A DNA stretch of 27,727 bases, taken from IMG/VR virus record IMGVR_UViG_3300034378_000246, positions 1-27,727 of that record; one strand, 5' to 3'. Under the pieces are notes generated by a model. The model was given only the letters and a program-made list of their open reading frames with translations. It had not been told where the DNA came from and did no database searches. The position numbers were made by a program, and so were the translations under genes. This document shows, piece after piece, positions 1-23,716 of this stretch. Positions within the stretch are counted from its first letter, which is position 1. Each line of letters begins with the position of its first letter. Source of the stretch: a virus.

Positions 1-58
1 CCCGCCGCTTCCGCCCGACGTCGTGGAGTTCGTCGACCGCATGGCCGTGGAGGGTTGA
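1..58 (+). CDS. C-terminal tail of an upstream paralogue of the next gene (partial)
   Basis: Reading from base 2, the window opens with 18 sense codons and a TGA stop at 56-58. The final residues, PDVVEFVDRMAVEG, closely match the last residues of the next protein (PDVVEFARRMMREG). This suggests the cut-off gene is a tandem paralogue of the GT2-like gene at 63. The two genes are separated by only 4 bases. The fragment carries no domain, so its function rests on this tail similarity. Confidence 0.6.
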   Translation, partial: PPLPPDVVEFVDRMAVEG

Positions 59-62
59 GTCG

Positions 63-875
63 ATGGCCGACGACCGCGTCTGCGCCGTCATGCTCTGCTA
101 CCGGGACGCCGAGTGGGTGCTCGAGCAGGTCGAGCGTTGGTCCGCGTTCGTCGACGTCTTCGCCATAGCCGTCGGCCCGTACGAGGGCGCGGCCGACATG
201 ACGCCGGACGTCGAGTCGGTCGCCCGTCTGGAGGCGTCCGAGCACTCGGCGAGCATGATCGTCGCGTCCGGCGTCTGGGCCGGCGGCGAACCCGCGGAGC
301 TCCGCGATCTGATGGAGGGCGAGGCGTTGGCCGCCGCAGGCTATCCACCGAAGGTGGTGGAGTTAGGGCCGGACGAGCTGTGGCCGGACGAGCTGATGCT
401 CGGCGTCGCGACCGTGCTTCGCAACGCGCCGGCGTGCGAGCCGCTGCACGTGGTCGTTCCGCAGCGGCTCTACGGCGGGGTTGGGAGCAGGCCGCTCCTG
501 GAGTTGCGGAGCGCGGCCGACGTGGGCAGGGCATCGCTGCCGCCCCTCGTGCGGGCCGGCGTAGCCCCGGTTGGTCGGCGTTGGCATCACGACGTCGGGC
601 TCCGGCGCCACGGCAGGCTCAGGACCGTTCGCGTGACGGGCCCGCCTCTCCGGCACCTCGCGTGGGTCGGCGAGCGCAGGGTTAGGCGGAAGCTCGCCCA
701 GCGGGCCCGGGCGTTCCCGACGCGGCGTCACGCGCCGGTCGAGGACGTGCTGGCGCTGCTGCGGGGTGAGCGCGGCTGGGCGCGCGTGGCCGGCGTCGGC
801 CTCTGGCAGTCCCCCGCTTGCGGGGTCGAGCCCGACGTCGTAGAATTCGCGCGCCGAATGATGAGGGAGGGCTGA
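63..875 (+). CDS. GT2-like glycosyltransferase, divergent
   Basis: 270 residues, function unproven. The N-terminus (VCAVMLCYRDAEWVLEQVE, then VDVFAIAVG) has the beta-alpha-beta opening of a GT-A glycosyltransferase. It resembles the third domain of the large glycosyltransferase at 20631, which reads VVCCMIACNEREWVRAALES then VDEYMIAVGG. A second shared stretch is LAWVGERRVRRKLAQRA here against YSWVGPLEKLRRKAAWYAEK there. A clear DxD metal-binding motif is not visible where that domain has VDGDEVF, so the enzyme may be degenerate or use another metal ligand. It starts the visible glycan operon, and the next gene begins 3 bases after its stop. Inference: it transfers a sugar, and acceptor and donor are unknown. 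Confidence 0.55.
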   Translation: MADDRVCAVMLCYRDAEWVLEQVERWSAFVDVFAIAVGPYEGAADMTPDVESVARLEASEHSASMIVASGVWAGGEPAELRDLMEGEALAAAGYPPKVVELGPDELWPDELMLGVATVLRNAPACEPLHVVVPQRLYGGVGSRPLLELRSAADVGRASLPPLVRAGVAPVGRRWHHDVGLRRHGRLRTVRVTGPPLRHLAWVGERRVRRKLAQRARAFPTRRHAPVEDVLALLRGERGWARVAGVGLWQSPACGVEPDVVEFARRMMREG

Positions 876-878
876 GGC

Positions 879-1472
879 GTGCGGGCACTCGTCACGGGCG
901 GCGCGGGCTTCGTCGGCTCGAACCTCGTGTTGGCGCTCTGCGCGCGCGGCTGGGACGTCGCGGTTCTCGACAACCTGCTAACGGGTCAGAAGGAGAACCT
1001 GGACGGCCTGCCCGTGGAGTTCGTGGAAGGGGACGTCTCCGTCGACAGCGACCCGTGCATCCGTTCGCTCTGTGAGGGGCGAGACGTGGTCTTCCACCTC
1101 GCGGCCGTCCCGCTCCTGATGTCCGAGACCTCTCTGGCGCTCAGCACGAACGTCCGTGGGACGTGCAACGTTCTGGAGGCGGCGTGTCTGGCGAAGGTCC
1201 CGCGCGTCGTCCTGGCCTCCAGCGTCTGCGTGTACGGGGACGGCTTCGAGGTGTACCCGCTGAAAGAGGGCGCGCCGCTGCAGCCCACGAACTTCTACGC
1301 GGCGTCCAAGTGCGCTGCGGAGGCCTACGCTCGGGCGTTCTGGGAGCGGCGCGATCTCCACGTCGTGACCCTCCGCTACTCGAACATCTACGGCCCCCGG
1401 CAGCTGCCCGAGAAGGCAAAGCGGTCCCGAACCTTTGGCCGAGTAGTTAACGGAGGGTGTGAATGTGGGTAA
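879..1472 (+). pseudogene. NAD-dependent sugar epimerase/dehydratase, N-terminal half (gene split by insert)
   Basis: Extended short-chain dehydrogenase with a GTG start. It shows the nucleotide-binding TGGAGFVG (residues 6-13), acidic D31 at the end of beta-2, and the catalytic pair Y140/K144 in YAASK, followed by LRYSNIYGPRQ, where the substrate-binding half normally begins. The homologous sequence then stops. The reading frame runs on for a few foreign codons to a TAA at 1470-1472. The missing half (GVVARFVDQALL, then DFTYVDD) resumes near 2279. Joining codon 182 (ending at 1424) to the ATG at 2279 gives a continuous 316-residue protein, normal for UDP-glucose 4-epimerase-like enzymes. As written, the product lacks the substrate-binding domain and is probably inactive unless the insert is removed or the halves reassemble. 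Confidence 0.8.
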
Positions 1473-1912
1473 TGGCACAGGATGGCGAACCGGAGTTACG
1501 GGCGATCTACAATCGCCATTATTCCTGTTACCATTACGCCGACGGCAGGACGCCGAAGAAATTTACGGGGCCAGGAGAGATTGTTGTTTTGACCACTCCG
1601 CAACGATCAGCATTGTGGGTGTGGCGAAAATTCAAGGACAAGTGCATTGATGAGCGCACGGGGCGACCACAGCAGGGGGTTAATTGCGCAGTATTTCGGA
1701 ATGAAGGCGCGGGCCTCTCATCTGACCTTATCCGAAAAGCGGACGCCATTGCTGATTTCTGCTGGTCTGATAAACGGCACTACACCTACGTTTCGGCGAA
1801 GGATGTCACGTCTCGGAATCCAGGGTATTGCTTCATATGCGCCGGATGGGTCCGTTGTGGAACCACAAAATCAGGCCTACTTATTTTCGAGAGGATCAGA
1901 AATGGCGGATGA
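1463..1912 (+). CDS. GNAT-fold protein resembling phage Mom-type DNA modifiers
   Basis: 149 residues. The ATG is preceded by GGAGGG at 1452-1457. The N-terminal RHYSCYHYADGR (residues 18-29) recalls the His-Tyr pair near the active site of Mu Mom-like proteins. Next come GPGEIVVLTT, WVWRKF and GVNCAVFRNEG. The C-terminal half, YTYVSAKDVTSRNPGYCFIC followed by AGWVRCGTTKSGLLIFER (residues 107-144), has the order N, GY, AGW, CG that ends many acetyltransferase-like folds. Mu Mom is known to convert adenine to a carbamoylmethyl derivative that blocks restriction. Whether this protein does so is inference from remembered family pattern. The gene lies in the foreign insert and overlaps the next gene by 11 bases, suggesting coupled translation. 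A plain N-acetyltransferase-like protein is the alternative. Confidence 0.55.
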   Translation: MWVMAQDGEPELRAIYNRHYSCYHYADGRTPKKFTGPGEIVVLTTPQRSALWVWRKFKDKCIDERTGRPQQGVNCAVFRNEGAGLSSDLIRKADAIADFCWSDKRHYTYVSAKDVTSRNPGYCFICAGWVRCGTTKSGLLIFERIRNGG

Positions 1913-2249
1913 TGTTTTCGATTGGGAACTTGCCAGGTGCATCCAGGATCATCAGGCCGAGGGCAAGGCCATCACCGACCGCCTGAAAGAGCAAGGACCG
2001 CTCGTGATTGACCGGCTGCTGAATTTCTACGGCCACGAAACGAGCCTGCGCCAGTTGGCCCGAGACGCCGGATGCTCGGCCACGTACCTGAGCCGGATTC
2101 ATCGAGGCCACCTTGTCATCTCTCCGGGCCTGTTCGCCCTGTTGAGTGACTTTTTACAGGATCGAACCCAGCACGAGCGGTTAACAGCCCGCCCCAAAGA
2201 TAGAATGAAAGCGGGTAGATGCCGAAGCAGAAAGGACTTACGCAAATGA
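1902..2249 (+). CDS. Helix-turn-helix (XRE-like) DNA-binding protein
   Basis: 115 residues from the ATG at 1902, which follows GAGAGGATCAGAA. An upstream in-frame ATG at 1647 would overlap the preceding gene almost wholly and is less likely. Residues 46-82 (ETSLRQLARDAGCSATYLSR, then IHRGHLVISPGLFALL) fit a Cro/C1-type helix-turn-helix: a first helix, a G-C-S turn and a recognition helix with TYLSRI. The N-terminal 40 residues are helical and charged, and the C-terminal tail is basic. It is the second gene of the insert in the epimerase. Its TGA (2247-2249) overlaps an ATG at 2246 that is in frame with the epimerase C-terminal half. A role as local repressor or element regulator is inference. 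Confidence 0.65.
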   Translation: MADDVFDWELARCIQDHQAEGKAITDRLKEQGPLVIDRLLNFYGHETSLRQLARDAGCSATYLSRIHRGHLVISPGLFALLSDFLQDRTQHERLTARPKDRMKAGRCRSRKDLRK

Positions 2250-2683
2250 CCATCTGCGCAGATGGCGAAAGTTCGAGAATGGATTCAGGGGACGGGGGCG
2301 TCGTCGCGCGGTTCGTCGACCAGGCGTTGCTCGACGCGCCGCTGACCGTCGTAAAGGGCCAGGCGCGGGACTTCACGTACGTGGACGACGCCTGCCGGGC
2401 GACGTTGGCCGCGGCCTACTTCGGTGGGCCGGGAGCGGTCTACAACGTGGGGACGGGGGCGGCGACGGCGATCTCCGAGCTCGCCGACGCCGTGTCATGT
2501 GCGGTTCGAGGCTCCGCGTTCGCAGCATGTCGGGAGTACGTGGAACCTCGATGGTGCGACGACGTCGTCGGGCGCTGTGTTGACATCAACAGGGCGAGGA
2601 CGGATCTCGATTACATCCCGGCCTGGTCGCTCCGTGCGGGGTTGGCCGAGACCGTCCGGTGGCAACGGGAGAGGCTCAGATGA
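2246..2683 (+). pseudogene. NAD-dependent sugar epimerase, C-terminal half (gene split by insert)
   Basis: The homologous part runs from about 2279 to the TGA at 2681-2683 (134 codons). It contains GGVVARFVDQALL, the RDFTYVDD motif typical of the substrate-binding lobe, YNVGTGAATAISELADAV, and a C-terminal LDYIPAWSLRAGLAETVRW. All of these are the expected continuation of the fragment at 879. It lacks the Rossmann nucleotide-binding half. The ATG at 2246 overlaps the stop of the helix-turn-helix gene as ATGA and could let this half be translated by coupling; another in-frame ATG lies at 2219. The stop overlaps the ATG of the next gene. Either this is a disrupted gene or the two halves assemble as a split enzyme. 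Confidence 0.75.
2251..2264. repeat. 14-bp perfect palindrome near the right end of the insert
   Basis: CATCTGCGCAGATG is fully self-complementary. It lies immediately before the right inverted-repeat arm of the insert and just after the ATGA junction at 2246. It could be a binding site for the helix-turn-helix protein encoded upstream or a recombination-related structure. Both are inference. Confidence 0.5.
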
Positions 2684-3294
2684 AGGTCGAGACGCCGCGC
2701 CAGCTCCTGGACTTCTGCCCGAAGATCGTGTTCGAGGACGGGACGACGAACGGCGGGCCTGTGCTGTCCATGCTCGAGACGATCTGGGGCCGGGAGTTCC
2801 GGGAGCTCGGGCCGAGGACGCTGGAGATTGGGGCGGGCGTCACGACGCTCGCGCTCCTGATCCGGGGCGTGGACGTTGACTCCGTGGACCCCGACCCGCG
2901 CGTCTGGTCGAAGATCTACGGGCTCGCGCGTGAGCTGGAGCTGCCCGGGCTCCGGCGGCTCCGCCCGATCTGCCTGCCCTCGCACCTCGCCCTGCCCGCC
3001 CTGCGCGGGCCGTACGGGTTCGCGTTGATGGACGGCGACTCGGCGTTCCCGGAGGCGGCCCTCGAGTGGGGGTACGTCGACCAAGCGTTGCGCGAGGGCG
3101 GGCTGCTGATGCTCGACGACGTGAAGTTCTGGACGAACCGGCAGCTGGCGCTCTTCCTCGAGGCGTCGGAGCACTACGAGCTCGAGCGGGACCTCGGGCG
3201 GGCCCGCCTCTACCGGAAGCTCGAGCACGGCCTGTCTGCCATGTACCACGCGCGGCAGCCGCGGCTCGTCGTCGACCCGGCGAAGGGGGGTTGA
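2680..3294 (+). CDS. Class I SAM-dependent methyltransferase
   Basis: 204 residues. The ATG at 2680 overlaps the preceding TGA as ATGA, which decides the start. Motif I is LEIGAGVTTLALL (residues 48-60), followed by the acidic strand end VDSVDPD (residues 66-72, D70 or D72 likely contacting SAM ribose). A motif near FALMDGDSAFPEAAL and then REGGLLMLDDV is like small-molecule methyltransferases of the Methyltransf_24 type. The last 25 residues are basic and not recognised. Context between sugar epimerases, a formyltransferase and glycosyltransferases suggests methylation of a sugar or glycan. No substrate can be read from the sequence. Confidence 0.75.
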   Translation: MKVETPRQLLDFCPKIVFEDGTTNGGPVLSMLETIWGREFRELGPRTLEIGAGVTTLALLIRGVDVDSVDPDPRVWSKIYGLARELELPGLRRLRPICLPSHLALPALRGPYGFALMDGDSAFPEAALEWGYVDQALREGGLLMLDDVKFWTNRQLALFLEASEHYELERDLGRARLYRKLEHGLSAMYHARQPRLVVDPAKGG

Positions 3295-3731
3295 GCGTAG
3301 ACACGTTCGGCCAGCTCGTGGACAAGCTGAGCATCGTGACCATGAAGCTCGGCCACACGCCGGACTCCGACCCGGTCACGCGCAAGGAGCTCTGGCGGCA
3401 GTGGGGCCTGCTGCTGACGGAGATGTTGGACTTGTCCGAGCGAGTGGTGCGGGGCGGCGAGCTGACGCGGCAGGAGCTCGTGCGCCCCGCCTGCAAGGTG
3501 GACCCCCCGCCCGAGGCGGCCGTGCAGGAGGCGAAGAGCCTCGCGCATGGCGCGGAACTCCTCGGGCGGAAGAACGACGAGATGTGGCACGACACGGAGA
3601 TGTTCCGCCGCGCGCGCGACGCCGACTGCGACGAGCTGCGCGAGCGCTGCTACTCGAACGTGGTGCGGAACCAGGAGCGGACGCTGCTCGTCGACCGGCT
3701 CGACGAGCTGTTCGTGGAGCAGCCGTTATAA
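3291..3731 (+). CDS. Small helical 'LVDKLSI' protein of the glycan block, function unknown
   Basis: 146 residues if the TTG at 3291, overlapping the previous stop as TTGA, is the start. The run of G at 3285-3290 is too close to be an ideal ribosome site, so a later start is possible. The N-terminal TFGQLVDKLSIVTMKLGH resembles the 'LIDKLSI...KLWH' opening of small helical families (DUF4254/DUF6165-like) found in polysaccharide gene clusters. I assign it by that motif only. The rest is charged and helical, with KNDEMWHDTEMFRRARDADC near the middle-to-end. The TAA stop lies inside the first copy of the 18-bp repeat. Confidence 0.55.
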   Translation: MSVDTFGQLVDKLSIVTMKLGHTPDSDPVTRKELWRQWGLLLTEMLDLSERVVRGGELTRQELVRPACKVDPPPEAAVQEAKSLAHGAELLGRKNDEMWHDTEMFRRARDADCDELRERCYSNVVRNQERTLLVDRLDELFVEQPL

Positions 3732-3743
3732 CAAATGTGATAA
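3726..3743. promoter_or_regulatory. 18-bp operator-like dyad, copy 1
   Basis: TTATAACAAATGTGATAA. It is an imperfect palindrome of form TTATnACA-nn-TGTnATAA (14 of 18 positions symmetric), identical to copies at 13170 (inverted) and 23674. It is AT-rich in a GC-rich genome and spans the stop of the preceding gene, just before the ribosome site of the next. The following bases GGTGGG are shared with copy 2 after one extra A. It is most like a dimeric-repressor operator; function is inferred. Confidence 0.65.
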
Positions 3744-3754
3744 GGTGGGCGTGG

Positions 3755-4645
3755 GTGAGGCGGGTCGCCATAGTCTGCGCGTCGGCGTCCGGCGACGTGG
3801 CCAACTGCACGGCCGTCGTCCGCCACCGCGCCCGGCTGTTTCCGGGCGCGGAGCTCCACTTCTACGTCCTGCGCCCGTTCGCCGACGCCGTGCGCCACAA
3901 CCCGTTTCTGACCGTGCACGAGCACGAGCCGTCGGCGACCTTCTACGGCGATCCCCAGGATCCGAAGCGGGACGGCCGGGACGGGCGGGGGGAGACGCGG
4001 CGGCTGATGATGCTGGCGAACGGGGAGGGCGCCGACGACGTGCACGCGCCCGTCAACTACATGAACGAGAAGATACGGGACAAGCCGGGCAACCGGACGC
4101 CGGGCGCGATCGTGCGCATGCCTGCCCTCTACTTCGGGCTCGGGCCGGCCGACGACTGGCGGCCTATGATCTTCCTGACGCCGGGGGAGGTCGAGGGCGT
4201 GGACGCCTTCTTCCGCGACCTGCCGGCCGGGCGCCCGCGCGTCATGCTCGAGACGGGGGAGGGCTACCAGTCGCCGACCTGGACGCCGGAGCTGACGGGG
4301 CGGATCGCGGACCGGCTTGCGCGCTGGGACCCGGTCTTCCTCTGCCCGTCGAAGCCCCGGCTCTGGCGGCCGGACGGGCGGCGATTCTTCTCCCTGGCCG
4401 CGCTCGGCTTCCGCCAGCTGACGGAGGCGTACAACCGGTGCAGGATGTTCGTCGGCTGCTCGTCCGGGCCCGCGTGCGTCACGTGCGCCGACCGCTGCGA
4501 CGCGCGTATCCCGCGCGTCGAGCACTACCCGGAGACCTACTTCTGGCGGGGGACGAAGGGCAACGCGCCGCACACGGAGCAGTTCGCCGGCGAAGACGAG
4601 TTGCTCGACCGGTTGGAGACGTTGGGCGAGGAGGTGTTGGGATGA
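3755..4645 (+). CDS. GT9-like glycosyltransferase (heptosyltransferase fold)
   Basis: 296 residues. The start is chosen at GTG 3755, 6 bases after AAGGTGGG, although the frame is open further upstream. The N-terminus RRVAIVCASASGDVANCTAVVR followed by FPGAELHFYVLRPFADAVRHNPFL follows the pattern of ADP-heptose:LPS heptosyltransferases: a GD start loop, an fPgAel strand, then NPfl. The C-terminal lobe has FVGCSSGPACVTCA, where the family has a Ser-Gly-x-x-H-type donor-binding loop. The usual His is replaced here, so donor use may differ. It ends with an ATGA overlap to the formyltransferase gene. It probably builds the glycan whose sugars are made by its neighbours. Confidence 0.6.
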   Translation: MRRVAIVCASASGDVANCTAVVRHRARLFPGAELHFYVLRPFADAVRHNPFLTVHEHEPSATFYGDPQDPKRDGRDGRGETRRLMMLANGEGADDVHAPVNYMNEKIRDKPGNRTPGAIVRMPALYFGLGPADDWRPMIFLTPGEVEGVDAFFRDLPAGRPRVMLETGEGYQSPTWTPELTGRIADRLARWDPVFLCPSKPRLWRPDGRRFFSLAALGFRQLTEAYNRCRMFVGCSSGPACVTCADRCDARIPRVEHYPETYFWRGTKGNAPHTEQFAGEDELLDRLETLGEEVLG

Positions 4646-5472
4646 GTGAAGTGAACACGTCCATCAGCGTCTTGTGGCCAGAGCAGTGGTGGAAGAGGAC
4701 CGTCACGTCGTTCCCGGACCTGGAGCGGCGGCAGCGCGTCGCCCTGCTCGGCTTCGGCCGGGCCGGGATCGGCGTCCTCCGCTGGCTCTACGCGCAGCGC
4801 GACCGGTTCGAGGTCGAGCTGTGGACGCACGGGCCGACGCCCGACCAGCCGGACATCCGGGACGTGGCGAGCCTGCTCGGGATCGAGTGTCACGAGGTGT
4901 CGGTCAACGATGTCCAGGACCCCGACGGCCTCGACGCCTTCCGCTGGCTCTGCCCGGACGTCGTGGCCAGCGTCTGCTACCGCGAGCGCGTCCTGCCCCG
5001 CGTGCTCGACTACGTGGCGGGCCGGGCGTTCAACGTCCATCCTTCGCTCCTGCCTCTCCACCGCGGATGTTCTGCCGTTCCGTGGCAGATTATCGAGGGC
5101 GACCAGCACGCGGGCGTCACCTTCCACTACATGACGGAGCGGTTCGACGACGGCGACGTGATCCTGCAGCTGGCCGAGCAGGTGGCCGACGACGAGACAG
5201 CGGCGTCGTTGTTCACCAAGCTCGAGGAGCGGATGGTCCAGTACTGGCCGGCCGCCCTCGAGCTCGTGCTCGCCGGCTTCCCGGGCGCGGCCCAGCGCGG
5301 GCGGTCGTCGTACCACGGGCGAGGATGTCCGTATGACGGCAAGCTGGAGTATGTGCCGCTTGATTCCCGTGCTCGATTTGTGCGCGCCATGCATTACCCG
5401 CCGATGCCGCCTGCAACGTATGATGGAAAACCGGTGTGCGAAGAAGACTATTTGAAGGGAAGGAATAGCTGA
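4642..5472 (+). CDS. Sugar N-formyltransferase (methionyl-tRNA formyltransferase fold)
   Basis: 276 residues, with ATG at 4642 overlapping the previous stop. A 30-residue N-terminal extension precedes the core RVALLGFGRAGIGVLRWLY. The catalytic signature of N10-formyltetrahydrofolate-dependent formyltransferases is complete: N131 and H133 in NVHPSLLP, and D169 in RFDDGDVILQ. The conserved HRGCSAVPWQIIEGD and GVTFHYM also match the fold. The C-terminus (FVRAMHYPPMPPATYDGKPV) lacks a tRNA-binding domain and resembles dTDP/UDP-4-amino-sugar formyltransferases. The likely reaction is formyl transfer from N10-formyl-THF to an amino sugar nucleotide. No sugar aminotransferase is present in the window, so the amino sugar must come from elsewhere. 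The stop overlaps the next start (TGATG). Confidence 0.85.
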   Translation: MSEVNTSISVLWPEQWWKRTVTSFPDLERRQRVALLGFGRAGIGVLRWLYAQRDRFEVELWTHGPTPDQPDIRDVASLLGIECHEVSVNDVQDPDGLDAFRWLCPDVVASVCYRERVLPRVLDYVAGRAFNVHPSLLPLHRGCSAVPWQIIEGDQHAGVTFHYMTERFDDGDVILQLAEQVADDETAASLFTKLEERMVQYWPAALELVLAGFPGAAQRGRSSYHGRGCPYDGKLEYVPLDSRARFVRAMHYPPMPPATYDGKPVCEEDYLKGRNS

Positions 5473-6401
5473 TGAAGAAAATCTTCGTCACAGGCGGCGC
5501 GGGCTACATCGGGACGACGCTCGTGCCCATGCTGCTCGAGCGCCGCGACTACGTGCGCGTCTTCGACTCCCTGCTCTTTGGCGGCGACGGCCTCGTCGCG
5601 TGTTTCAGGAACCCGCGCTTCTCCTTCGTGTGTGGCGACGTGACGGACGCGCATGCGCTGAGGCGGGGGCTCGACGGCTTCCGGCCGGACGCGGTCGTCC
5701 ACCTGGCGGCCATCGTCGGCTACCCCCAGTGCAAGAAGGTCGGCGAGCGGCGGACGCACGAGGTCAACGTGGGGGGCACGCGGAACGTGCGGCGGGCGAC
5801 CGGCCGGGCCCCGCTCGTCTTCGCCTCGACGACGAGCGTGTACGGCAAGCTGGAGGACGTGTGCGAGGAAGGGGGGCCGAAGAGGCCGCTCACGACCTAC
5901 GGCCGGTCAAAGCTCGAGGCCGAGGAGTTGCTGGACGACGCCGTGCGCCTGCGGCTGGCCACGAACTTCGGCGTCTCGCCCCGCATGCGCCTCGACCTGC
6001 TGCTGAACGACTTCGTGTACCGGGCGGTGAAGGAGCGGAACCTCGTGGTCTACGAGCGGGGGCACAGGCGCGGGTTCGTCTGCGTCCGGGACTCGGCGCG
6101 CGCCATCATGCACGCGCTTGACAACTTTGCGGCCATGTGCGGCCAGCCGTTCAACGTCGGCCACGAGTCGCTGGACACGACGAAGGGCGAGCTCGCGGAG
6201 ATGGTGGCCGCGCGTACGGACGCCTACCTGCACTTCGCCGACTACGCTGCGGACGAGGATCAGCGGGACTACCATGTCTGCTACGAGCGGCTGGCTGCCG
6301 CCGAGGGCTGGCGGCCGACTGTCTCGCTCGAGGACGGGATTGAGGAGGTCCGCCGCGCCTGTTCCGTGCTTGACAGGGGTGGCCGGATGAGTAACGTGTA
6401 G
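5472..6401 (+). CDS. NAD-dependent sugar epimerase/dehydratase, intact
   Basis: 309 residues. It carries TGGAGYIG (residues 7-14) for NAD binding, D32 at the end of beta-2 (VFDSLL), GDVTD (55-59), VVHLAA (75-80), a Ser/Thr-rich ASTTSVYG (118-125) and the catalytic Y143/K147 in YGRSK. The second lobe has RRGFVCVRDSARAI and FNVGHE. The sequence IVGYPQCKK is like dTDP/UDP-sugar epimerases of surface-polysaccharide clusters. Substrate is not determinable. It is a functional counterpart of the broken epimerase at 879 but not a close copy. It is separated from the next gene by 48 bases that carry a GGAGG at 6411-6415. Confidence 0.85.
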   Translation: MKKIFVTGGAGYIGTTLVPMLLERRDYVRVFDSLLFGGDGLVACFRNPRFSFVCGDVTDAHALRRGLDGFRPDAVVHLAAIVGYPQCKKVGERRTHEVNVGGTRNVRRATGRAPLVFASTTSVYGKLEDVCEEGGPKRPLTTYGRSKLEAEELLDDAVRLRLATNFGVSPRMRLDLLLNDFVYRAVKERNLVVYERGHRRGFVCVRDSARAIMHALDNFAAMCGQPFNVGHESLDTTKGELAEMVAARTDAYLHFADYAADEDQRDYHVCYERLAAAEGWRPTVSLEDGIEEVRRACSVLDRGGRMSNV

Positions 6402-6449: not shown

Positions 6450-7403
6450 GTGCTCGTCACGGGCGGGACGGGCTTTCTCGGCCACCACCTCGTTCCCAGA
6501 TTGAGAACGTTGGGCGCGGAGGTCGTCGCGCCCGCATCGGGCGACTGCGATCTGACCAAGTTGTCGGAGACGCGCGGGTACTTCGCCAAGATCAACGCAC
6601 AGATCGTGATCCATGCGGCGGCCTACTACGGCGGGATCGGCGTCAATGAGCGGGAGCCGGCCGAGCTCTTCCACGAGAACGCGGTGATGGGCGCGAACGT
6701 CTTTGAGGCCTGCGCCCGCATGCCGAACGTGGGCGCGGAGATGCCGGAGAAGCTCGTCGTCGTCGGCACGGCCTGCGCGTATCCGGGCGCGGCCGCGCAC
6801 CGCCCGGCCTTGCGCGAGGACGAGCTCTGGGACGGCCCGCCCCATCCGTCCGTCGAAGGCTACGCCGCGGTCAAACGGCTGTTGGACGTCGCCGGCCGCT
6901 GCTACCTCCGGCAGCACGGCCTGCGGTCGTGCCACCTGCTGCTGACGAACTTGTACGGCGAGCACGACTGCTTCGACGCCCGCCGCAGCCACGTCGTGGC
7001 CGCCCTCGTCCGCAAGTTCGTGGAGGCCGCCGACTCCCGCGCCCCCCGCGTCGAGGTCTGGGGCACCGGAAGGCCGGTGCGGGAGTTCATGTACGCGGGC
7101 GACGCTGCTGACGGCGTCGTGCGGGCGGCCGAGCGTGCGTTGCCCGCCGAGCGGATCAACATCGGGACGGGCGTGGGCACGCGCATACGCAAGCTCGTCG
7201 ACCTCGTCGTCGAGCTCACGGGCTACGAGGGCGAGGTCTTCTGGAACGACGAGCATCCTGACGGCGCGCCGCACAAGGTCTTGGACGTGCGGCACATGTG
7301 GGCAACGCTCGACTGGGAGCCGCAGACGACGTTGCAGGACGGGCTCGGGCGAACGATAGCCTGGTACAGGGAGAACAAGGCCGAGGCTGACGCCCGGCCG
7401 TGA
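6450..7403 (+). CDS. fcl: GDP-L-fucose synthase-like epimerase/reductase
   Basis: 317 residues from the GTG at 6450. TGGTGFLG (residues 4-11) binds NADP. YYGGIGVNEREPAELFHEN (59-77) and a GTACAYP (107-112) replace the usual SSCIYP. The catalytic Y138/K142 lie in GYAAVKR, followed by LLLTNLYGEHDCFD and a late VWGTGRPVREFMYAGDAADG. This is the motif order of GDP-4-keto-6-deoxymannose epimerase/reductases. The start is uncertain: homologues usually have about seven residues before VLVTG, and the in-frame codons upstream (YWRGRR) have no ATG/GTG/TTG, while GGAGG at 6411 would best fit a start near the ACG at 6423. It ends the first glycan block. The GDP-mannose dehydratase partner is not in the window. 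Confidence 0.75.
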   Translation: MLVTGGTGFLGHHLVPRLRTLGAEVVAPASGDCDLTKLSETRGYFAKINAQIVIHAAAYYGGIGVNEREPAELFHENAVMGANVFEACARMPNVGAEMPEKLVVVGTACAYPGAAAHRPALREDELWDGPPHPSVEGYAAVKRLLDVAGRCYLRQHGLRSCHLLLTNLYGEHDCFDARRSHVVAALVRKFVEAADSRAPRVEVWGTGRPVREFMYAGDAADGVVRAAERALPAERINIGTGVGTRIRKLVDLVVELTGYEGEVFWNDEHPDGAPHKVLDVRHMWATLDWEPQTTLQDGLGRTIAWYRENKAEADARP

Positions 7404-9659: not shown

Positions 9660-10892
9660 ATGCTCAGGGCGAAGATCGACGGGGAGTCACTGAGGCGGGC
9701 GGCCCGGCTGCTTGAGCGCGTGACGTCGCGCGCCACGCCCCGCCCGGTCCTGAAGGCCGTGCACCTGGAGGCGGACGGCGGGACGACGGTCGTGGCGTCG
9801 GCCACCGATCTGGCGACGACCGTGCGCGTGCGCGTCGACTGCGAGGGCGTGGAGGCCGACGGGCCGGCGCTCGTCGACGGCCGGCTCCTGCGCGTGGCGC
9901 TCACGAGCCGGGCCGAGACGCTGGCGCTCAGGGCGTCGGAGAAGCGGGCGGAGATCAGGGCGGGCGAGTCCCGCTTCCGCCTCGCCCTCCTCGACCCGGC
10001 TGAGTACCCGGAGTTGCCGAAGCTCGAGTCCGGGGGGAAGGCGCTCGAGCTGGACGCCGCGGAGTTCTCGGCCGCCGTCGGCCGGGCGGCGTCGTCCGTG
10101 GCTACGGAGAACGGGCGGTACGTGCTGGCCGCCGTCCACATGGTCGTCGAGTCGAAGGCCCGGAAGGGCGGGAAAGCGAAGAAGGCGAAGAAGGGGGCGG
10201 TGCAGGACGGGGATCGGCAGCTGGCGCTCGTGGGCTTCGACGGTCGGCGGCTGACGGTCGCCGAGTGCGCGGTCGCCGGCGGCCGTCTCGACGACCTTAC
10301 GTTCCTGGCCCGACCCGCCGCGCTCTCCCTCCTGGCCCGCCTGCCGGGCGAGGTCGAGGACGAGTGGCTTAGGCTGTCCGTGGACGGCGACGATGGCCGG
10401 CTGCGGGCGTCGAGGGGCGGCGCATGCGTCTGGACGCTGGCCGTCGAGGGCCGGTTCCCGGCCTGGCGCGACCTGATACCGACGCGCGAGCATCGGACGC
10501 TGTGCGTGGACTCCGCGGCCTTCCAAGACGCGCTCAAGCAGCTCGACTGCTTCCGGTCGCTCGACAGCAACGCCGTCCGCCTGACCGTGGGCAAGAACGG
10601 TCTGGCGCTGAAGGCGAGGTCGGCCGAGGCCGGCGAGGGTGAGGTCGGCGTGCCCGTCCTGGGCGGGTCGGACGCCGAACCGGGGTGGCGCGACTTCTTC
10701 CAGCCCCAGTTCCTGGCCGACGCGGCGACCGCCTGCCCGGCCGACGCCCTGACCCTGGAGCTGCGAGAGCCTGTCGAGCTAGAGGAGGGCGTGCGGCAGG
10801 ACGCCCCCGTCGTGTTCAGGGACGAGCGGACGACGGTCGTCATCGCGCCCTTCGCCGTCGCGGGCGGGAGCTGGGATGACGAGCAGGAGTAG
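9660..10892 (+). CDS. dnaN: DNA polymerase III beta sliding clamp homologue
   Basis: 410 residues, with ATG 9660 ten bases after GGAGG (9645-9649). Three-domain clamp pattern: domain 1 has AVHLEADGG, ASATDLATTVRVRV, GPALVDGRLL and RFRLALLDPAEYPELP; domain 2 has ENGRYVLAAVHMVVES and LALVGFDGRRLTVAE; domain 3 begins near RFPAWRDLIPTREH and ends with TVVIAPFAV. A Lys-rich insertion (about residues 163-180) in domain 2 is unusual. The C-terminus runs past the usual end as a short acidic tail. It should ring DNA and tether a polymerase or other DNA enzymes. It overlaps the methyltransferase start by 17 bases. No polymerase gene is seen in the window. Confidence 0.85.
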   Translation: MLRAKIDGESLRRAARLLERVTSRATPRPVLKAVHLEADGGTTVVASATDLATTVRVRVDCEGVEADGPALVDGRLLRVALTSRAETLALRASEKRAEIRAGESRFRLALLDPAEYPELPKLESGGKALELDAAEFSAAVGRAASSVATENGRYVLAAVHMVVESKARKGGKAKKAKKGAVQDGDRQLALVGFDGRRLTVAECAVAGGRLDDLTFLARPAALSLLARLPGEVEDEWLRLSVDGDDGRLRASRGGACVWTLAVEGRFPAWRDLIPTREHRTLCVDSAAFQDALKQLDCFRSLDSNAVRLTVGKNGLALKARSAEAGEGEVGVPVLGGSDAEPGWRDFFQPQFLADAATACPADALTLELREPVELEEGVRQDAPVVFRDERTTVVIAPFAVAGGSWDDEQE

Positions 10893-12702
10893 GCGCTCGA
10901 CGCCCCGCGTCCGCATCCTGGTCGGCGACGTCTTCGACCGTCTGTCGGAGTTGCCCGAGGAGTCTGTCCACCTCTGTGTCACTTCACCACCCTACTGGGG
11001 CCTCCGCGACTACTCGGTCGAGCCGCGGGCCTACGGCGGCGATCCGGGCTGCGAGCACGAGTGGGGGGTCGAAGAGAGGGGGAAGCGGAAGGACCTGCTG
11101 CCGTCGAGCGAGACGCGCTCGACCTGTCGGACGGGGACGGACGAACGCCAGGGCCGGGCGTCCGTGACCGGCGGTCGCCGTTGTGGCCGGTGCGGTGCTT
11201 GGCTCGGCTGTCTGGGGAAGGAGCCGATGCCCGCCGAGTGGTGCGCCCGCCAAGTCGAGGTCTTCCGCCTCGTCCGCCGCCTTCTGCGCCCGGACGGCTC
11301 GCTGTTCGTGAACGTCGGCGACTGCTACTCGCGCGGCAAGCTGAAGATGGTCGAGGACTGTGTTCGTGGCGGGAAACAGAATAGTAGTATGCGGAGTGAA
11401 CGTCGAGCGCCTGGTTATAAGGATGGCGACCGCGTCCTCCTCGGCCCGATGTTCGCCGAGGCCATGCGCGTCGACGGCTGGCACCTCTGCCAGCAGATAG
11501 TGTGGGCGAAGGCCGTGGCCTTTGCTGAGTCGGGCGACGTCGGCTCCTGCATGCCCGAGTCCGTCGACGGCTGGCGTTGGGTTCGCTGCAGGCGAAAGCT
11601 CGCGTCGGCGAGGAGTTGCAGAGACGAGTCACTGAAGCAGGACGGACATGGGCCGAGGCGTGCGGGGTTCAACGCGCGGTGGAAAGAATCTCAACGCAAA
11701 CCCTCCGGCTGGAACGTTGGCCACGACGCGCCGGACGACGTCGGCCGCTATCTTGACAACCGGCACGAGGCGGTGTACGAGGACTGCCCCGGCTGCGACC
11801 GCTGCCGGCCGAACGACGGGCTGGTCCTGCGCAGGGGTAGGCTTCGCCCGGTCAACAGCTACGAGTACTTGTACCAGTTCTCGAAAGGTCCCCGCCCGTT
11901 CGGGGACCGGGAGGCCGTTCGGGAGCCGGCGTCGGCCTCCTCGCTCGCCCGCATAGCGCAGCCGACGTTCGACCTCCAGACGGGCGGACCGAAAGACTAC
12001 CGGAAGACGGGCGTCAACCCGTCACAGAGCTGTCGGAAGGCGCTGGAGAACTTCAGGCGGAACCCGGGCCGGACGCCGCGCGCGGTCTGGCGGATCAACC
12101 CGGAGCCGACCCGCCTCTGTCACTTCGCCACCTATCCTCAGAAGCTCGTCGAGCCGTGCGTCGCCGGCTGGACGTCCGAGGCCGGCTGCTGCGCGGCGTG
12201 CGGCGCGCCGTGGGCGAGGGTCGTGGAGCGCACGCCGGAGTACCAGGAGCTCGCGGACAAGTTCAGCGGATGGTCTGCGAATCCCGAGACGGAGGCGGTG
12301 AGACTGAGGACTGGCGTTGGAATGGGCCATCCCGCGAGTCTTCCGCCCGCGAACCGCACGCTCGGCTTCCGCCCGACCTGCGGTTGCCCGCCCGCCGACC
12401 CCGTGCCGTGCACGGTCCTCGACCCGTACCTCGGGACCGGGACCACGCTGCTCGTCGCCTCTCGCATGGGCCGGGACGGCGTGGGCGTGGAACTGAACCC
12501 GGAGTACGCGGAGATGGCGAGGCAGCGGATCGCCGACGACGCTCCGCTGCTGGGCGTGGTCGTCGATTCAATTCCGGAGGGGACGTCCGAGGATGGGTCG
12601 CCCGCGCAAGCCCCCGCTGCTCTCCGTCCGGCCCGCCGCCCTGCGCGCGGCCGTCGACCACGCGGCGGCCGTCGCCGAGCGCGTGCCGACGGCCGAGGCT
12701 GA
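10876..12702 (+). CDS. Beta-class DNA methyltransferase (m4C or m6A) with cysteine clusters
   Basis: 608 residues. Motif IV TSPPYWGLRDY (36-46) stands near the N-terminus, preceded by ILVGDVFDRLSELPEESV. Motif I (LDPYLGTGTTLLVASRMGRD, then GVGVELNPEYAEMA) is near the C-terminus. Motif IV before I is the beta-class order. SPPY is common in N4-cytosine enzymes and also seen in some N6-adenine ones. Between them lie the target-recognition region and several Cys pairs (RRCGRCGAWLGC, CPGCDRCRP, CCAACGAPW) that look like zinc sites. The start overlaps the clamp gene, suggesting coupling. The last ~35 residues are a Pro/Arg-rich run lying out of frame over the next gene. It probably modifies phage DNA; no matching restriction enzyme is seen. 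Confidence 0.88.
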   Translation: MTSRSRRSTPRVRILVGDVFDRLSELPEESVHLCVTSPPYWGLRDYSVEPRAYGGDPGCEHEWGVEERGKRKDLLPSSETRSTCRTGTDERQGRASVTGGRRCGRCGAWLGCLGKEPMPAEWCARQVEVFRLVRRLLRPDGSLFVNVGDCYSRGKLKMVEDCVRGGKQNSSMRSERRAPGYKDGDRVLLGPMFAEAMRVDGWHLCQQIVWAKAVAFAESGDVGSCMPESVDGWRWVRCRRKLASARSCRDESLKQDGHGPRRAGFNARWKESQRKPSGWNVGHDAPDDVGRYLDNRHEAVYEDCPGCDRCRPNDGLVLRRGRLRPVNSYEYLYQFSKGPRPFGDREAVREPASASSLARIAQPTFDLQTGGPKDYRKTGVNPSQSCRKALENFRRNPGRTPRAVWRINPEPTRLCHFATYPQKLVEPCVAGWTSEAGCCAACGAPWARVVERTPEYQELADKFSGWSANPETEAVRLRTGVGMGHPASLPPANRTLGFRPTCGCPPADPVPCTVLDPYLGTGTTLLVASRMGRDGVGVELNPEYAEMARQRIADDAPLLGVVVDSIPEGTSEDGSPAQAPAALRPARRPARGRRPRGGRRRARADGRG

Positions 12703-13169: not shown

Positions 13170-13187
13170 TTATCACATTTGTTATAA
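13170..13187. promoter_or_regulatory. 18-bp operator-like dyad, copy 2 (inverted)
   Basis: TTATCACATTTGTTATAA, the exact reverse complement of copies 1 and 3. On the minus strand it continues A-GGTGGG, as copy 1 continues GGTGGG. It lies in the 16-213 bases after the JAMM gene and before the bS21-like gene. Being nearly palindromic, its orientation may not matter to a dimeric regulator. Confidence 0.65.
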
Positions 13188-13572: not shown

Positions 13573-13863
13573 GTGACGGTCGACCTCACGGTCCTGCTCC
13601 TGCTCGAGCTCGGCCTCGGCCTCCAGAACCTGGAGGAGCTGCGGGCGCGGTTCGACGCCGAGGTCGACCGGATGGTCGAGGAGGTGCTGGCAGATGACGA
13701 CCAGGAAGAGGGCGCGTGTGGCGAGCGGCTCGGGCGGCGTCGAGCGCAAGGCCATAGGTGCCCGGGGGCGGAGGGTTCGGCGGAGGACGTCCGAGACTCA
13801 GACTCAGAAGGCGGGCTCCTCGCGCTCCTCCGTGGCCGGGCCTCGGGGGCCGAGCGCAACTGA
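13573..13863 (+). CDS. Small protein with hydrophobic N-terminus, function unknown
   Basis: 96 residues from GTG 13573 behind GGGGGGCGGGGCGG; a GTG at 13555 overlapping the previous stop as GTGA is the alternative start. It begins MTVDLTVLLLLELGLGLQN, then a helical LEELRARFDAEVDRMVEEVL. The second half overlaps the portal gene by 170 bases in another frame and reads as low-complexity sequence. The ribosome site of the portal gene lies inside it. I cannot name a function. The first 40 codons are the convincing part. Confidence 0.4.
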   Translation: MTVDLTVLLLLELGLGLQNLEELRARFDAEVDRMVEEVLADDDQEEGACGERLGRRRAQGHRCPGAEGSAEDVRDSDSEGGLLALLRGRASGAERN

Positions 13864-16800
13864 GCGGGCGACGCTCGACGAATACGTCGGTGCCCTCGTC
13901 AGCTCGTGGCAGGTGTCGCAGGGCATCTCCAGGCCGGCCGACTTCGAGAACCTGGTCAGCCACGCCCGCGGCTGGGTCTACGCCGCCATACGCGCCATCG
14001 CCCAGGGCTGCGCCGGCCAGGCGCTCGAGGGCTGGAAGAAGGGTGGGCGTAATCGCCGCGACTGGAAGCCGCTGAAGGAGGACGACCCCCTCGCTCAGCT
14101 CCTCGCCCGCCCGAACCCGTTGTATGCGATGCCGCAGCTGGTCGAGGACACGACGTTCTTCCTGGAGACGACGGGCAACGCCTACTGGTACCTCGTGTTC
14201 GGCAAGCGGCTGAAGGACCGGCCGCGGGAGATCTGGCCGCTGCCGGCCCAGCACGTGAAGGTCATGCCGGACACGAAGGAGATGGTGCGCGGCTACGTCT
14301 TCCAGCCGGGGTCGAAGAAGACGGCCGTGAGCTTCGAGCCGCACGAGATCGTCCACTTCCGGCACGCGGCCGTCGAGAACCGGTGGTACGGGAGCGGGCC
14401 GCTGCTGGCCGCGGCCGAGGCCGTGAACTCCGACGAGGCTATATCCGAGGCCCAGGACTACATGTTCAGGAACGCGCCGCACCCGTCCGGGTTCCTGATG
14501 AACAAGAGCGGGCGGAAGTGGACGGCCGAGCAGCGGCGGACCATCAACGCCCTCCTCCGCCGGTTCGTCGGCGGCAAGCAGCACGGGCGCGTGATGTTCC
14601 TGGACATGGACGTGGCGTGGCAGGCGGCCGACCGGGCGCCGCGCGAGATGGGCTACCGCGAGTCGGGCGTCTACGTGCGGGAGAAGATACTCAGCATCTT
14701 CGGCGTGCCGTCGGCCATCGTCGGCAAGGTGGCGGACGCGAACCGCAGCAACATGGAGGCGCAGCAGTACGGGTTCGCGAAGTGGACGCTCCTGCCCCTG
14801 CTCCAGATGATGGCGACGAAGATAAACGAGGGCATCATCCGGCCGTTCTTCGACGACTCGGGGAAGACGGTGGTCGAATTCGAGGACCCGGTGCCGCAGG
14901 ATTGGCAGCGGCTGCTCGAGGAGTGGCGGGTCGGCCTCGAGCGCGCGGCCGTGGCCCCGAACGAGTTCCGGTCCGAGATCCTGGGCCTCGAGCCGCTGAC
15001 GGCCGACAAGCCGGTGAAGTCCGTCATGGACTCCCCGATCGTGCTGACGCCCGAGGGGCCGAAGACGCTGCTGCCCGTCGAGGGCCAGGAGGAGGAAGAG
15101 CCTCCGCCGCCTGCGGAGGACGAAGAGGAGGAGCCGACGCCGGAGGAGGAGGCCGACGAGTTCTTCGGCGGCGACGACGAGGACGACGAGGGGGAGACGG
15201 CGCGGGCGCGGAAGAGGAAGCGCCCGCTCTCGTCGTTCACGGCCTCCGAGCTCGCCCGTCTGCTGGCCGCCGAGTCCGAGGAGGCGCGGCGGTTCGACGC
15301 CGTGGCCGGCGAGGCCGTGCGCGACGAGGTTCGCCGGGGTGTCATGACGGAGGCCGCCCTCATGGGCGTGGAGCCAGACGAGGTGGTGATGGACGCCGCC
15401 CCGATCAGGAAGGCGCTGGAGGAGCGGGCGGAGAAGCACTGGCGGCGGACGATCTCGCGCACGAACCGGAGGGAGCTCCGGCGGCTGCTCGCCGACGGCA
15501 TATCGGAGCGCCTGCCGGTCAAGGAGATAGCGGAGCAGGTCGAGCGGGGCCTGCGCGGGATGTCGGCCGCGCGCGCCACGCGCATCGCGCGCACGGAGGT
15601 CGTCGGGGCGGCGAACGCGGGCGCCGACGCCCTGCACGAGCAGGTCGGGCTCCGGTACAAGCGGTGGCTCGCGACGGGCGACGACCGCACGCGCACCACG
15701 CATCGGGTCGCGCACTGGCAGCTCCGCCGCCAGGGCTCGAAGTTCAGGGTCGGGGCCGCGCACCTCCGATACCCTGGCGATCCTGCGGCCGGCCACCCGG
15801 AGGAGACCGTGCAGTGTTTCATTTCCTATCGCGTACCGGTTTTCACGGACAAGGGGTGGAGATATATCGGGAAGATCACTCCTGGTGACCGCGTGCTCAC
15901 TCACGAGGGAAGATTCAGGAAGGTTCACAGCGTGCTCCAGGGCCAGACGTACGGAGGTCAGGTCATAGACGTAGCCTTCGAGGAGTTGCCTGGAAGGCAC
16001 GGTCGAGGTCGAAGGCGGCTGACGATCACGCCAGAGCATCGGATTTTGACGGCGAAGGGGTGGACCCCGGCGTCTCGGGTGTCCGTCGGCGACACGCTCG
16101 TGTTCGGCGCGCTCCCTTGTGTTGTTTGCGGCGAACCTGCCGCGCTATACCCGAACAACAAGACGGGAACCTGTTCTCGTCACTGCGCTGCCGTGCGCGC
16201 TGGTCGTGAGACAGGTAATCGGCCCGAGGAGAAGGAGAGGCGGCGTGCGCAGGCACTCAAGCAGTGGCAAGACCCTGCCCACAGAGCGAACGTGTCTCGT
16301 AAGGCGCGTGAGCAGATGTTGCGTGAATACGCTGGCGGTTCCCGTGATGGGCATGAGATCACGAAGAAGGCGAGGGATGCTTATTTCAGCAAGTACGGTC
16401 CTGGGGGCTATGTCGGCACGCATCAGGAAGAGCTGCGGCCGAAGATAGCCGCAGGGGTTGTCCGAAAGTACGGATCCTATCTGGAGTTCATGAAGCAGGT
16501 CGTCTTCGTCGGCCTAGGCAAGTCCGCGTGGAAAGGCTCGGTGTTGGAGAGCTCAATGCGACGTTTCCTGAGCAAGTGCGGTCGACGCTATGAAGAGCAG
16601 TTCTGGGTCGGCCGTCGGCGCGTGGACTTCTATTTGCCCGACGAGAAGTTGTTCGTCGAGTGCGACGGTACTACGTTTCATCAGGACCGCGACGCGGAGG
16701 TGAGGCGAGACATAGAGATACTGTCCGCCCATCCAGATCACGAGATCGCGCACGTGCGTTATGGCCAAGGTGACAATGGCGTGCCTGAATGGGAGTATCG

Positions 16801-17197
16801 GAACTTGGTGACGTTGAACCATGAAGGGCAGTACGGGCACGCTTTCGTCAAGGTGACCTCGGTCGAGATCCGTAAGCTGACACGACCAAAGCGGCTCTAC
16901 AACTTGGGCATAGAAGAGGATGAGAGCTACGTTGCCAAGGGACTGTGCGTTCACAACTGCCGGTGCACGACCGTGCCTGAGATGGCCGACGAGCCGGACC
17001 CGGACGAGAAGCCGCCCATCGAGATGAACCCGGAGACGGGCAAGGAGCAGATGCCGGGACAGCTGCGCGAGCGGCTCACTGCTTGGCGCGCTGTATACGA
17101 GGACGGGGAGGAGAAGGTCGAGCGCCTCTCCAGAGGCTATCTCGACGGGTTCGCTGAGCGGGCACGCGCCCGCCTGCTGGCGGCCGTGAGGGACTGA
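13694..17197 (+). CDS. HK97-type portal protein fused to a MuF-like domain, intein-containing
   Basis: 1167 residues before splicing, 786 after. The ATG is 8 bases after GGAGG (13681-13685). Residues 1-60 are basic and low-complexity. The portal domain (about 70-450) includes ARGWVYAAIRAIAQGCAGQ, ARPNPLYAMPQLVEDTTFFL, GNAYWYL, PHEIVHFRH, YGSGPLLAAAEAV and the C-terminal FGVPSAIVGKVADANRSNME. An acidic linker (EEEEPPPPAEDEEEE, about residues 462-500) leads to a helical MuF/SPP1 gp7-like region with TSARTEVVGAANAG-type sequence (ARTEVVGAANAGADALHEQV). This region ends at the conserved CRCTTVPEM, where the intein sits. The portal forms the dodecameric DNA channel, and MuF proteins act in head morphogenesis. 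The two are usually separate genes. The acidic stretch may orient scaffold or DNA. Confidence 0.9.
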   Translation: MTTRKRARVASGSGGVERKAIGARGRRVRRRTSETQTQKAGSSRSSVAGPRGPSATERATLDEYVGALVSSWQVSQGISRPADFENLVSHARGWVYAAIRAIAQGCAGQALEGWKKGGRNRRDWKPLKEDDPLAQLLARPNPLYAMPQLVEDTTFFLETTGNAYWYLVFGKRLKDRPREIWPLPAQHVKVMPDTKEMVRGYVFQPGSKKTAVSFEPHEIVHFRHAAVENRWYGSGPLLAAAEAVNSDEAISEAQDYMFRNAPHPSGFLMNKSGRKWTAEQRRTINALLRRFVGGKQHGRVMFLDMDVAWQAADRAPREMGYRESGVYVREKILSIFGVPSAIVGKVADANRSNMEAQQYGFAKWTLLPLLQMMATKINEGIIRPFFDDSGKTVVEFEDPVPQDWQRLLEEWRVGLERAAVAPNEFRSEILGLEPLTADKPVKSVMDSPIVLTPEGPKTLLPVEGQEEEEPPPPAEDEEEEPTPEEEADEFFGGDDEDDEGETARARKRKRPLSSFTASELARLLAAESEEARRFDAVAGEAVRDEVRRGVMTEAALMGVEPDEVVMDAAPIRKALEERAEKHWRRTISRTNRRELRRLLADGISERLPVKEIAEQVERGLRGMSAARATRIARTEVVGAANAGADALHEQVGLRYKRWLATGDDRTRTTHRVAHWQLRRQGSKFRVGAAHLRYPGDPAAGHPEETVQCFISYRVPVFTDKGWRYIGKITPGDRVLTHEGRFRKVHSVLQGQTYGGQVIDVAFEELPGRHGRGRRRLTITPEHRILTAKGWTPASRVSVGDTLVFGALPCVVCGEPAALYPNNKTGTCSRHCAAVRAGRETGNRPEEKERRRAQALKQWQDPAHRANVSRKAREQMLREYAGGSRDGHEITKKARDAYFSKYGPGGYVGTHQEELRPKIAAGVVRKYGSYLEFMKQVVFVGLGKSAWKGSVLESSMRRFLSKCGRRYEEQFWVGRRRVDFYLPDEKLFVECDGTTFHQDRDAEVRRDIEILSAHPDHEIAHVRYGQGDNGVPEWEYRNLVTLNHEGQYGHAFVKVTSVEIRKLTRPKRLYNLGIEEDESYVAKGLCVHNCRCTTVPEMADEPDPDEKPPIEMNPETGKEQMPGQLRERLTAWRAVYEDGEEKVERLSRGYLDGFAERARARLLAAVRD
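15815..16957 (+). other. Intein with a Vsr/EDxHD-like homing endonuclease domain
   Basis: 381 residues inserted between Q707 and C1089 of the portal-MuF protein. The splicing N-block is C708-F-I-S-Y-R-V-P-V-F-T-D-K-G-W followed by ITPGDRVLTHEG; the 'TPEHRILT' block B is at about 16030. The C-end is LYNLGIEEDESYVAKGLCVHN then Cys. C1, block-B His, the terminal HN and Cys+1 are all present, so splicing should work, leaving ETVQ-CRCTTVPEM. Between them are a Cys4-like finger (CVVCGEP...CSRHC), NUMOD-like helical repeats, and ESSMRRFLSKCG, EEQFWVGRRRVDFYLPDEKL, FVECDGTTFHQ. The last three suggest a Vsr/DUF559-type nuclease rather than LAGLIDADG or HNH. Two sampled lines have 35 of 60 G+C, lower than the host gene, fitting recent transfer. 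Confidence 0.88.
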
Positions 17198-23111: not shown

Positions 23112-23716
23112 GGCGCGCCCTCCGCCGAGACCCGCTGCTCACCTTCCTGTCCGGCACCGTGTCCGGCACCATGTCCGGCACCATGTCCGGCACCATGTCC
23201 GGCATGGTGTTGGCCGTCTGCGTGGCCGTCGCCGCGCTGGCCGTCGGTAGCCGCGCGCGGCCGCCGGCGACCACGCGCTACGTCGAGGGCGTGGCGTCGA
23301 GCACGGCCCCGGACACGAACGACGTGATGCACACCGTCAAGTCCCTGCGCTCGGCGCCGGCCTGGTTCTGCTTCTACCGCACGGTGCTCCTGAACCACGA
23401 CGAGTCGCGCCCCGTCGGCGTCGTGGAGCACGCGCGCGTCGCCGGGAACAAGCTGCGCGTCGTCCTCCGCATAGAGGACGACGAGGCGTGGCGCATGGTC
23501 GTCGACGGTCGGCTGCGCGGCCTGAGCTGCGGTGTGCTGGCCGTCGATCCGACGCCCGTGTTCTTCGACGGCCGGGAGATCAAGCGCGTGGAGACCGCGG
23601 TGTGGACGGACGTGAGCCTGGCCACGATGCCGGCCAACCCGGACGCCTGGATCGAGCGCTTCTGGGAGGCTGCTTATAACAAATGTGATAAATGCCCGGA
23701 CGGCGGGCGGAGGTAG
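23108..23716 (+). CDS. Prohead-protease-like protein with N-terminal membrane segment
   Basis: 202 residues from GTG 23108, overlapping the previous stop. Residues 14-33 are SGT(V/M) repeats, followed by a hydrophobic stretch MVLAVCVAVAALAVG (33-47). This looks like a signal anchor after a basic start (MRRALRRD). The rest matches an HK97-type protease core: H97 in TVLLNHDESRPVGVVEHAR, S140 in GRLRGLSCGVLAV, and the closing VETAVWTDVSLATMPANPDA. It differs from the canonical prohead protease at 17554 and is not beside capsid genes. The end runs through the third copy of the 18-bp repeat. It may be a membrane-bound peptidase taken from the head-protease family. Activity and topology are inference. 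Confidence 0.65.
   Translation: MRRALRRDPLLTFLSGTVSGTMSGTMSGTMSGMVLAVCVAVAALAVGSRARPPATTRYVEGVASSTAPDTNDVMHTVKSLRSAPAWFCFYRTVLLNHDESRPVGVVEHARVAGNKLRVVLRIEDDEAWRMVVDGRLRGLSCGVLAVDPTPVFFDGREIKRVETAVWTDVSLATMPANPDAWIERFWEAAYNKCDKCPDGGRR
23150..23209 (+). repeat. 12-bp tandem repeat, five units, in coding sequence
   Basis: Units TCCGGCACCGTG, three exact TCCGGCACCATG, then TCCGGCATGGTG. They encode SGTV-SGTM-SGTM-SGTM-SGMV just before the hydrophobic segment of the protease-like protein. In-frame units can expand or contract by slippage without shifting the frame. Confidence 0.9.
23674..23691. promoter_or_regulatory. 18-bp operator-like dyad, copy 3
   Basis: TTATAACAAATGTGATAA, identical to copy 1 and to the reverse complement of copy 2. 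It lies within the last codons of the protease-like gene (encoding YNKCDK), 30 bases before the GTG of the zinc-ribbon gene. An operator controlling the genes to the right is the simplest reading. Confidence 0.65.

Follow-up and report, generated by a model that had tools for sequence, protein, structure and literature searches.

A gene for an NAD-dependent sugar epimerase in an uncultured high-GC phage is divided by a segment of foreign base composition that encodes a GNAT-fold protein and a small helix-turn-helix (HTH) protein. Our preferred explanation, to which we give a probability of roughly 0.6, is that this two-gene segment was acquired horizontally and placed in the loop between the epimerase domains, giving a gene in pieces that can be read in series. 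The phage is represented by the linear IMG/VR virus record IMGVR_UViG_3300034378_000246, all 27,727 bases of which were analysed and are referred to here as the window. Terminase, portal, protease, and capsid genes are present in the window. We found no DNA similar to window bases 1-4000 among named phages. With exact peptide patterns, which detect close relatives only, we searched for related phages through the capsid, the terminase, and the gene at 2680 and obtained no more than two matches, both to the capsid at 26% identity.

The two halves of the epimerase are encoded on the plus strand. The N-terminal half, at 879..1472, matches positions 1-179 of the 240-position Pfam Epimerase profile (E 7e-39), and the C-terminal half, at 2246..2683 (145 codons), matches positions 177-240 (E 1e-6). 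Together these two ORFs tile about 60 uninterrupted viral epimerases end to end, almost without gap or overlap, confirming an earlier preliminary description of this DNA in which they were read as separated parts of one enzyme. Codons 1-182 of the N-terminal ORF are homologous to epimerases, and approximately 15 further codons read into the insert up to the stop. The C-terminal ORF starts with an ATG at 2246 and contains a second ATG at 2279. Neither a stop nor a frameshift occurs in the homologous part of either half. The glycine motif GGAGFVG and the YxxxK and GPRQ motifs are kept in the N-terminal half, and the RDFxYVDD motif, read directly, is kept in the C-terminal half. The break position corresponds to the loop between the NAD-binding and substrate-binding domains. 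Our searches revealed neither an intact allele nor a close relative of the phage, so we deduced the empty site from uninterrupted epimerases that are about 30% identical. Two further epimerase-family genes, both uninterrupted, lie downstream of the split gene (5472-6401 and 6450-7403).

The segment separating the halves differs in composition from its surroundings, as the preliminary description had claimed. The insert has nominal ends at 1425..2278 on the plus strand (854 nt, ~0.85 kb) and is supported by the GC change point, GC content at third codon positions (GC3), and the epimerase tiling; it has 54.4% GC compared with 70.3% for the window, and both GC and GC3 shift sharply where it begins and recover beyond it. 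The 854-nt stretch of lowest GC in the window begins at 1434, and stretches of the same length away from the insert have a mean GC content of 70.9% (sd 3.3%) and a minimum of 58.2%, from 16117, which overlaps the portal intein. GC3 is 0.56 for the GNAT gene and 0.67 for the HTH gene, against 0.91 and 0.84 for the N- and C-terminal epimerase parts and 0.84-0.98 for other genes, in a comparison of correctly framed genes that left out rows 3296, 4640, and 25890, the intein, and the C-portal part. The second low-GC stretch of the window is the portal intein itself, an in-frame element of 381 residues and 58.7% GC at 15815-16957, located between ETVQ and CRCTT in a portal/Mu-F-like ORF (13694-17197) and weakly matching a restriction-endonuclease-like domain (MTES_1575, DUF559).

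The ends of the insert are defined less sharply than its composition. A two-break likelihood model put the start at ~1411-1430 (support 1352-1458) and the end at ~2285-2287 (support 2278-2297), leaving a slack of about 20 nt or more. It had been proposed that deletion of exactly 1425-2278 restores a normal 316-residue enzyme. The open frame of 316 codons holds, but the exact ends are not fixed, and in the join of 1424 to 2279 the stretch from GPRQ to GVV is approximately 6-7 residues longer than in solved relatives. Due to these extra loop residues, the insert may be about 20 nt longer than its nominal length, or the insertion may have brought small sequence changes. Removal in frame is in itself a 1 in 3 event, since any length of the form 3n+2 allows it. 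The imperfect inverted repeat described as edging the insert proved to be at chance level; its score of 16 was reached by 4.6-6.3% of shuffled 60-nt ends and, elsewhere in the window, by 752 of 1941 pairs with the same spacing. Both ends also have a copy of the 6-bp direct repeat CGAGAA close by (1409 and 2274), a chance-level coincidence given the spans compared, and with CGAGAA as the insertion repeat, the gene would not stay in frame.

The first gene of the insert (1463..1912, plus strand) encodes a protein of 149 amino acids that is a clear member of the phrog_24928 family, with a profile match over residues 2-143 (E 8e-23). The AlphaFold2 model of this protein has a pLDDT of 94.6, and its best PDB matches are GNAT acyltransferases at a probability near 1, with TM scores of ~0.5-0.6 and a best E value of only 0.004. 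Relatives are encoded in 190 viral stretches and 28 species genomes from Proteobacteria, Chloroflexota, Planctomycetota, and others, and we compared 80 of the 190 viral loci together with the 28 species-genome loci. The insert's protein is up to ~70% identical to the fetched relatives, and the GC and GC3 of its nearest relatives are mostly similar to those of the insert. An alignment of 53 family sequences contains 29 invariant residues, including H19-Y20-S21 and a core of N74-C75-A76-V77-F78-R79-N80-E81. In four fetched relatives (L172:2882-4855, L177:6001-8046, L180:39-2228, and L190:5974-7962), the GNAT domain is joined to a large C-terminal part containing an N6/N4 DNA methylase domain; the L177 fusion has a further match to a PHROG annotated as DNA helicase. 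These fusions to DNA methyltransferases, along with the modeled fold, support a role of the insert's first gene in DNA modification, which we consider probable and which agrees with the DNA-protection cargo suggested previously. The family phrog_24928 has no assigned function and makes a good candidate for a DNA-modification enzyme so far unrecognised, a prediction that is directly testable. The window also encodes a DNA methyltransferase of 608 aa (10876-12702), whose gene overlaps the end of a sliding-clamp-like gene (9660-10892); DNA modification independent of the insert may therefore already occur in this phage.

The flanks of phrog_24928 genes are unrelated across the many phages and prophages that carry them, a pattern in keeping with a moron. 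The same pairing of GNAT and HTH genes was looked for elsewhere, and none of the approximately 107 other GNAT-family loci fetched shares the insert's flanks or its HTH gene. No other locus in the fetched set was seen to split a gene, in a test that detects only genes with an intact form in the set. At L001:2777-4354, the closest GNAT relative is preceded by a DUF488-like ORF and followed by a DUF5131-like (radical-SAM-type) ORF, both named by eye.

The second gene (1902..2249, plus strand) encodes an orphan protein of 115 amino acids with a weak match to HTH_31 (E 1.6e-4, below the gathering score) and a predicted all-helical structure of low confidence. With exact peptide patterns, which find close relatives only, we detected no relatives in viral contigs, species genomes, phages, or plasmids. 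A phmmer search against ORFs of an initial set of fetched GNAT loci gave one weak match (E 0.03), which lay ~2.6 kb from the locus's GNAT gene. A perfect 16-bp palindrome, CCATCTGCGCAGATGG, lies at 2250..2265, close to the 3' end of the insert; it occurs once in the window and is its sole perfect loopless palindrome of at least 16 bp. About 1% of shuffled inserts contain such a palindrome, a figure to be taken loosely because CCATCTGCGCAGATGG came to light after repeated inspection of the segment. At the RNA level, folding of the region does not surpass that of shuffled sequences. The simplest idea is that CCATCTGCGCAGATGG is a candidate operator of the HTH protein, which is possible. In a separate observation, ACAAATGTGATAA (extended form, TTATAACAAATGTGATAA) has three copies within or close to intergenic gaps of the window, at 3731-3743, 13170-13182 (minus strand), and 23679-23691. 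Three matches were reached in none of 100 shuffles, and these sites are possibly a shared promoter or operator.

Each of the three gene junctions across the insert consists of overlapping ORFs. The GNAT start at 1463, which has a strong ribosome-binding site, overlaps the stop of the N-terminal epimerase half (1470-1472); the HTH start at 1902 overlaps the GNAT stop (1910-1912); and the HTH stop, TGA at 2247-2249, overlaps the in-frame ATG of the C-terminal half at 2246 as ATGA. By our own estimate, the ATGA overlap by itself has a random chance of about 1 in 12. Because all four ORFs overlap, one transcript could serve them all, and the epimerase halves may still be made and assemble. A scan of 1300-2400 detected no sigma-70 promoter, a finding of little weight because the model may not suit the phage's host.

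We considered which kind of element the insert might represent. Profile searches agreed with the preliminary description in finding no transposase, integrase, or homing nuclease among the insert's proteins. We rejected a homing endonuclease element, as neither protein matches a nuclease; an integron cassette, given a single GTTRRRY at 2141 and no RYYYAAC in 1350-2400; and a transposon with terminal inverted repeats (p ~0.05-0.06 for the repeat by shuffling, with 39% of same-spaced window pairs reaching its score). A group I or II intron was likewise rejected, since a permissively filtered Rfam search of 1200-2600 gave no match up to E 5. The two insert ORFs fill ~92% of the nominal insert, leaving ~67 of 854 nt outside them, and the insert folds no better than shuffles (z -0.31). 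One 20-base pattern from the 5' end of the insert revealed no second copy in viral contigs.

Several explanations compete with a functional gene in pieces. The same insertion may have left the epimerase dead, with the open halves indicating only a recent event. Gene interruptions are mostly inactivating, and the two intact epimerase-family genes downstream could make the split one dispensable. Against this stand the open halves with their conserved motifs, the position of the break in the interdomain loop, and the overlap of the C-terminal start with the HTH stop, and we consider a dead epimerase unlikely. The preliminary description had proposed, among other readings, a non-autonomous mobile cassette; such an element would have defined ends and be moved in trans by another element's enzyme. 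The compact two-gene size, the inverted repeat at the nominal ends, the palindrome CCATCTGCGCAGATGG near the 3' end, and the presence in the same window of an intein with an endonuclease-like domain are compatible with such a cassette. However, the inverted repeat scores no better than chance, no significant target duplication was seen, and CGAGAA in that role would not keep the frame. Neither the DNA pattern in viral contigs nor the HTH protein in the collections searched revealed a second copy, and neither the flanks nor the HTH partner of the insert recurred in any fetched relative. We therefore regard a mobile cassette with defined ends as decidedly improbable.

The record is metagenomic and comes without read data, composition changes sharply at the insert, and no relatives were found that confirm the arrangement, all of which would fit an assembly chimera in which a fragment of another phage was joined in at both junctions. 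Such an artifact would require two independent misjoins that return exactly to the continuing half of the same gene, and the longest word common to both junction regions is 6 nt, which is short for a k-mer-driven misjoin; a chimera is thus very improbable. The segment might also be an intervening RNA element that carries ORFs, such as a self-splicing intron, as was raised previously; the epimerase mRNA would then be rejoined, in keeping with the open frame left by removal of the segment. The intron-model search, the small space left by the ORFs, and the folding at shuffle level disfavor this explanation, and the in-frame removal is a 1 in 3 chance outcome whose join carries extra loop residues. 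We consider an RNA element extremely unlikely.

Our findings are best accommodated by a model in which a GNAT-fold DNA-modification gene and a small HTH gene would have arrived by horizontal transfer from a source with a GC content below that of the phage. The two-gene piece would have been inserted in the same orientation as the epimerase gene, in the loop between its NAD-binding and substrate-binding domains. With overlapping ORFs, one transcript could yield four proteins, of which the HTH protein would regulate the cargo and the two epimerase halves could assemble by analogy with known phage genes in pieces. Entry would have been by one-off illegitimate recombination rather than self-mobility, and we consider such an event likelier than movement in trans because no second copy was found. 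A bolder proposal, which we hold to be highly doubtful, is that a nuclease-free modification-plus-HTH element invades phage genes at interdomain loops, with stop/start overlaps keeping the host gene translatable and the 3' palindrome serving as its recognition site.

Comparison with known systems helps to place the insert. The preliminary description called the GNAT protein Mom-like, and this holds at the level of fold. As in Mu Mom (phrog_1384) and its GNAT relatives, the insert encodes a small phage GNAT-fold protein whose context points to DNA modification, and by eye both Mom and the insert's protein contain an HYS tripeptide. In contrast to Mom, the insert's protein shows no sequence or profile similarity to it, belongs to a separate PHROG, and has no adjoining Com gene; hhalign against the Mu Mom profile, a profile of little diversity, gave a probability of 0.4%. 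Because these sequence and profile comparisons were negative, we do not claim membership in the Mom family, and we suggest from fold and context that the protein may work like Mom. Relative to its own phrog_24928 family, the insert's gene differs in lying inside a split gene and in having this HTH neighbor, neither of which was seen for other fetched members.

Homing endonucleases, which account for their own insertion, are the main known source of phage genes in pieces. Examples include nrdA of Aeh1 with mobE, the T4 topoisomerase gene split by mobA, and gene 43 of Aeromonas phage 25, and the split NrdA of Aeh1 remains active (PMC2988022). Similarly, the epimerase gene contains a foreign insertion within coding sequence, retains two open, co-oriented halves, and is split where the halves could reassemble. 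The overlapping stop and start codons at this insert also resemble those of T4 mobE and other free-standing endonucleases (PMC2988022). Unlike in these systems, the cargo consists of GNAT-fold and HTH proteins, and because an endonuclease is lacking, there is no self-evident mechanism of insertion.

In its foreign GC content, patchy distribution, and probable benefit to the phage, the insert resembles phage morons. Morons classically sit between genes and have their own promoter and terminator, whereas this insert lies inside a gene and showed no sigma-70-like promoter in the region scanned. On our best reading, it is a horizontally acquired two-gene moron at the epimerase interdomain loop. 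If a likely DNA-protection gene did split the epimerase without a nuclease, then ordinary acquired cargo, and not only homing endonucleases, can land inside an enzyme gene that is still read in series.
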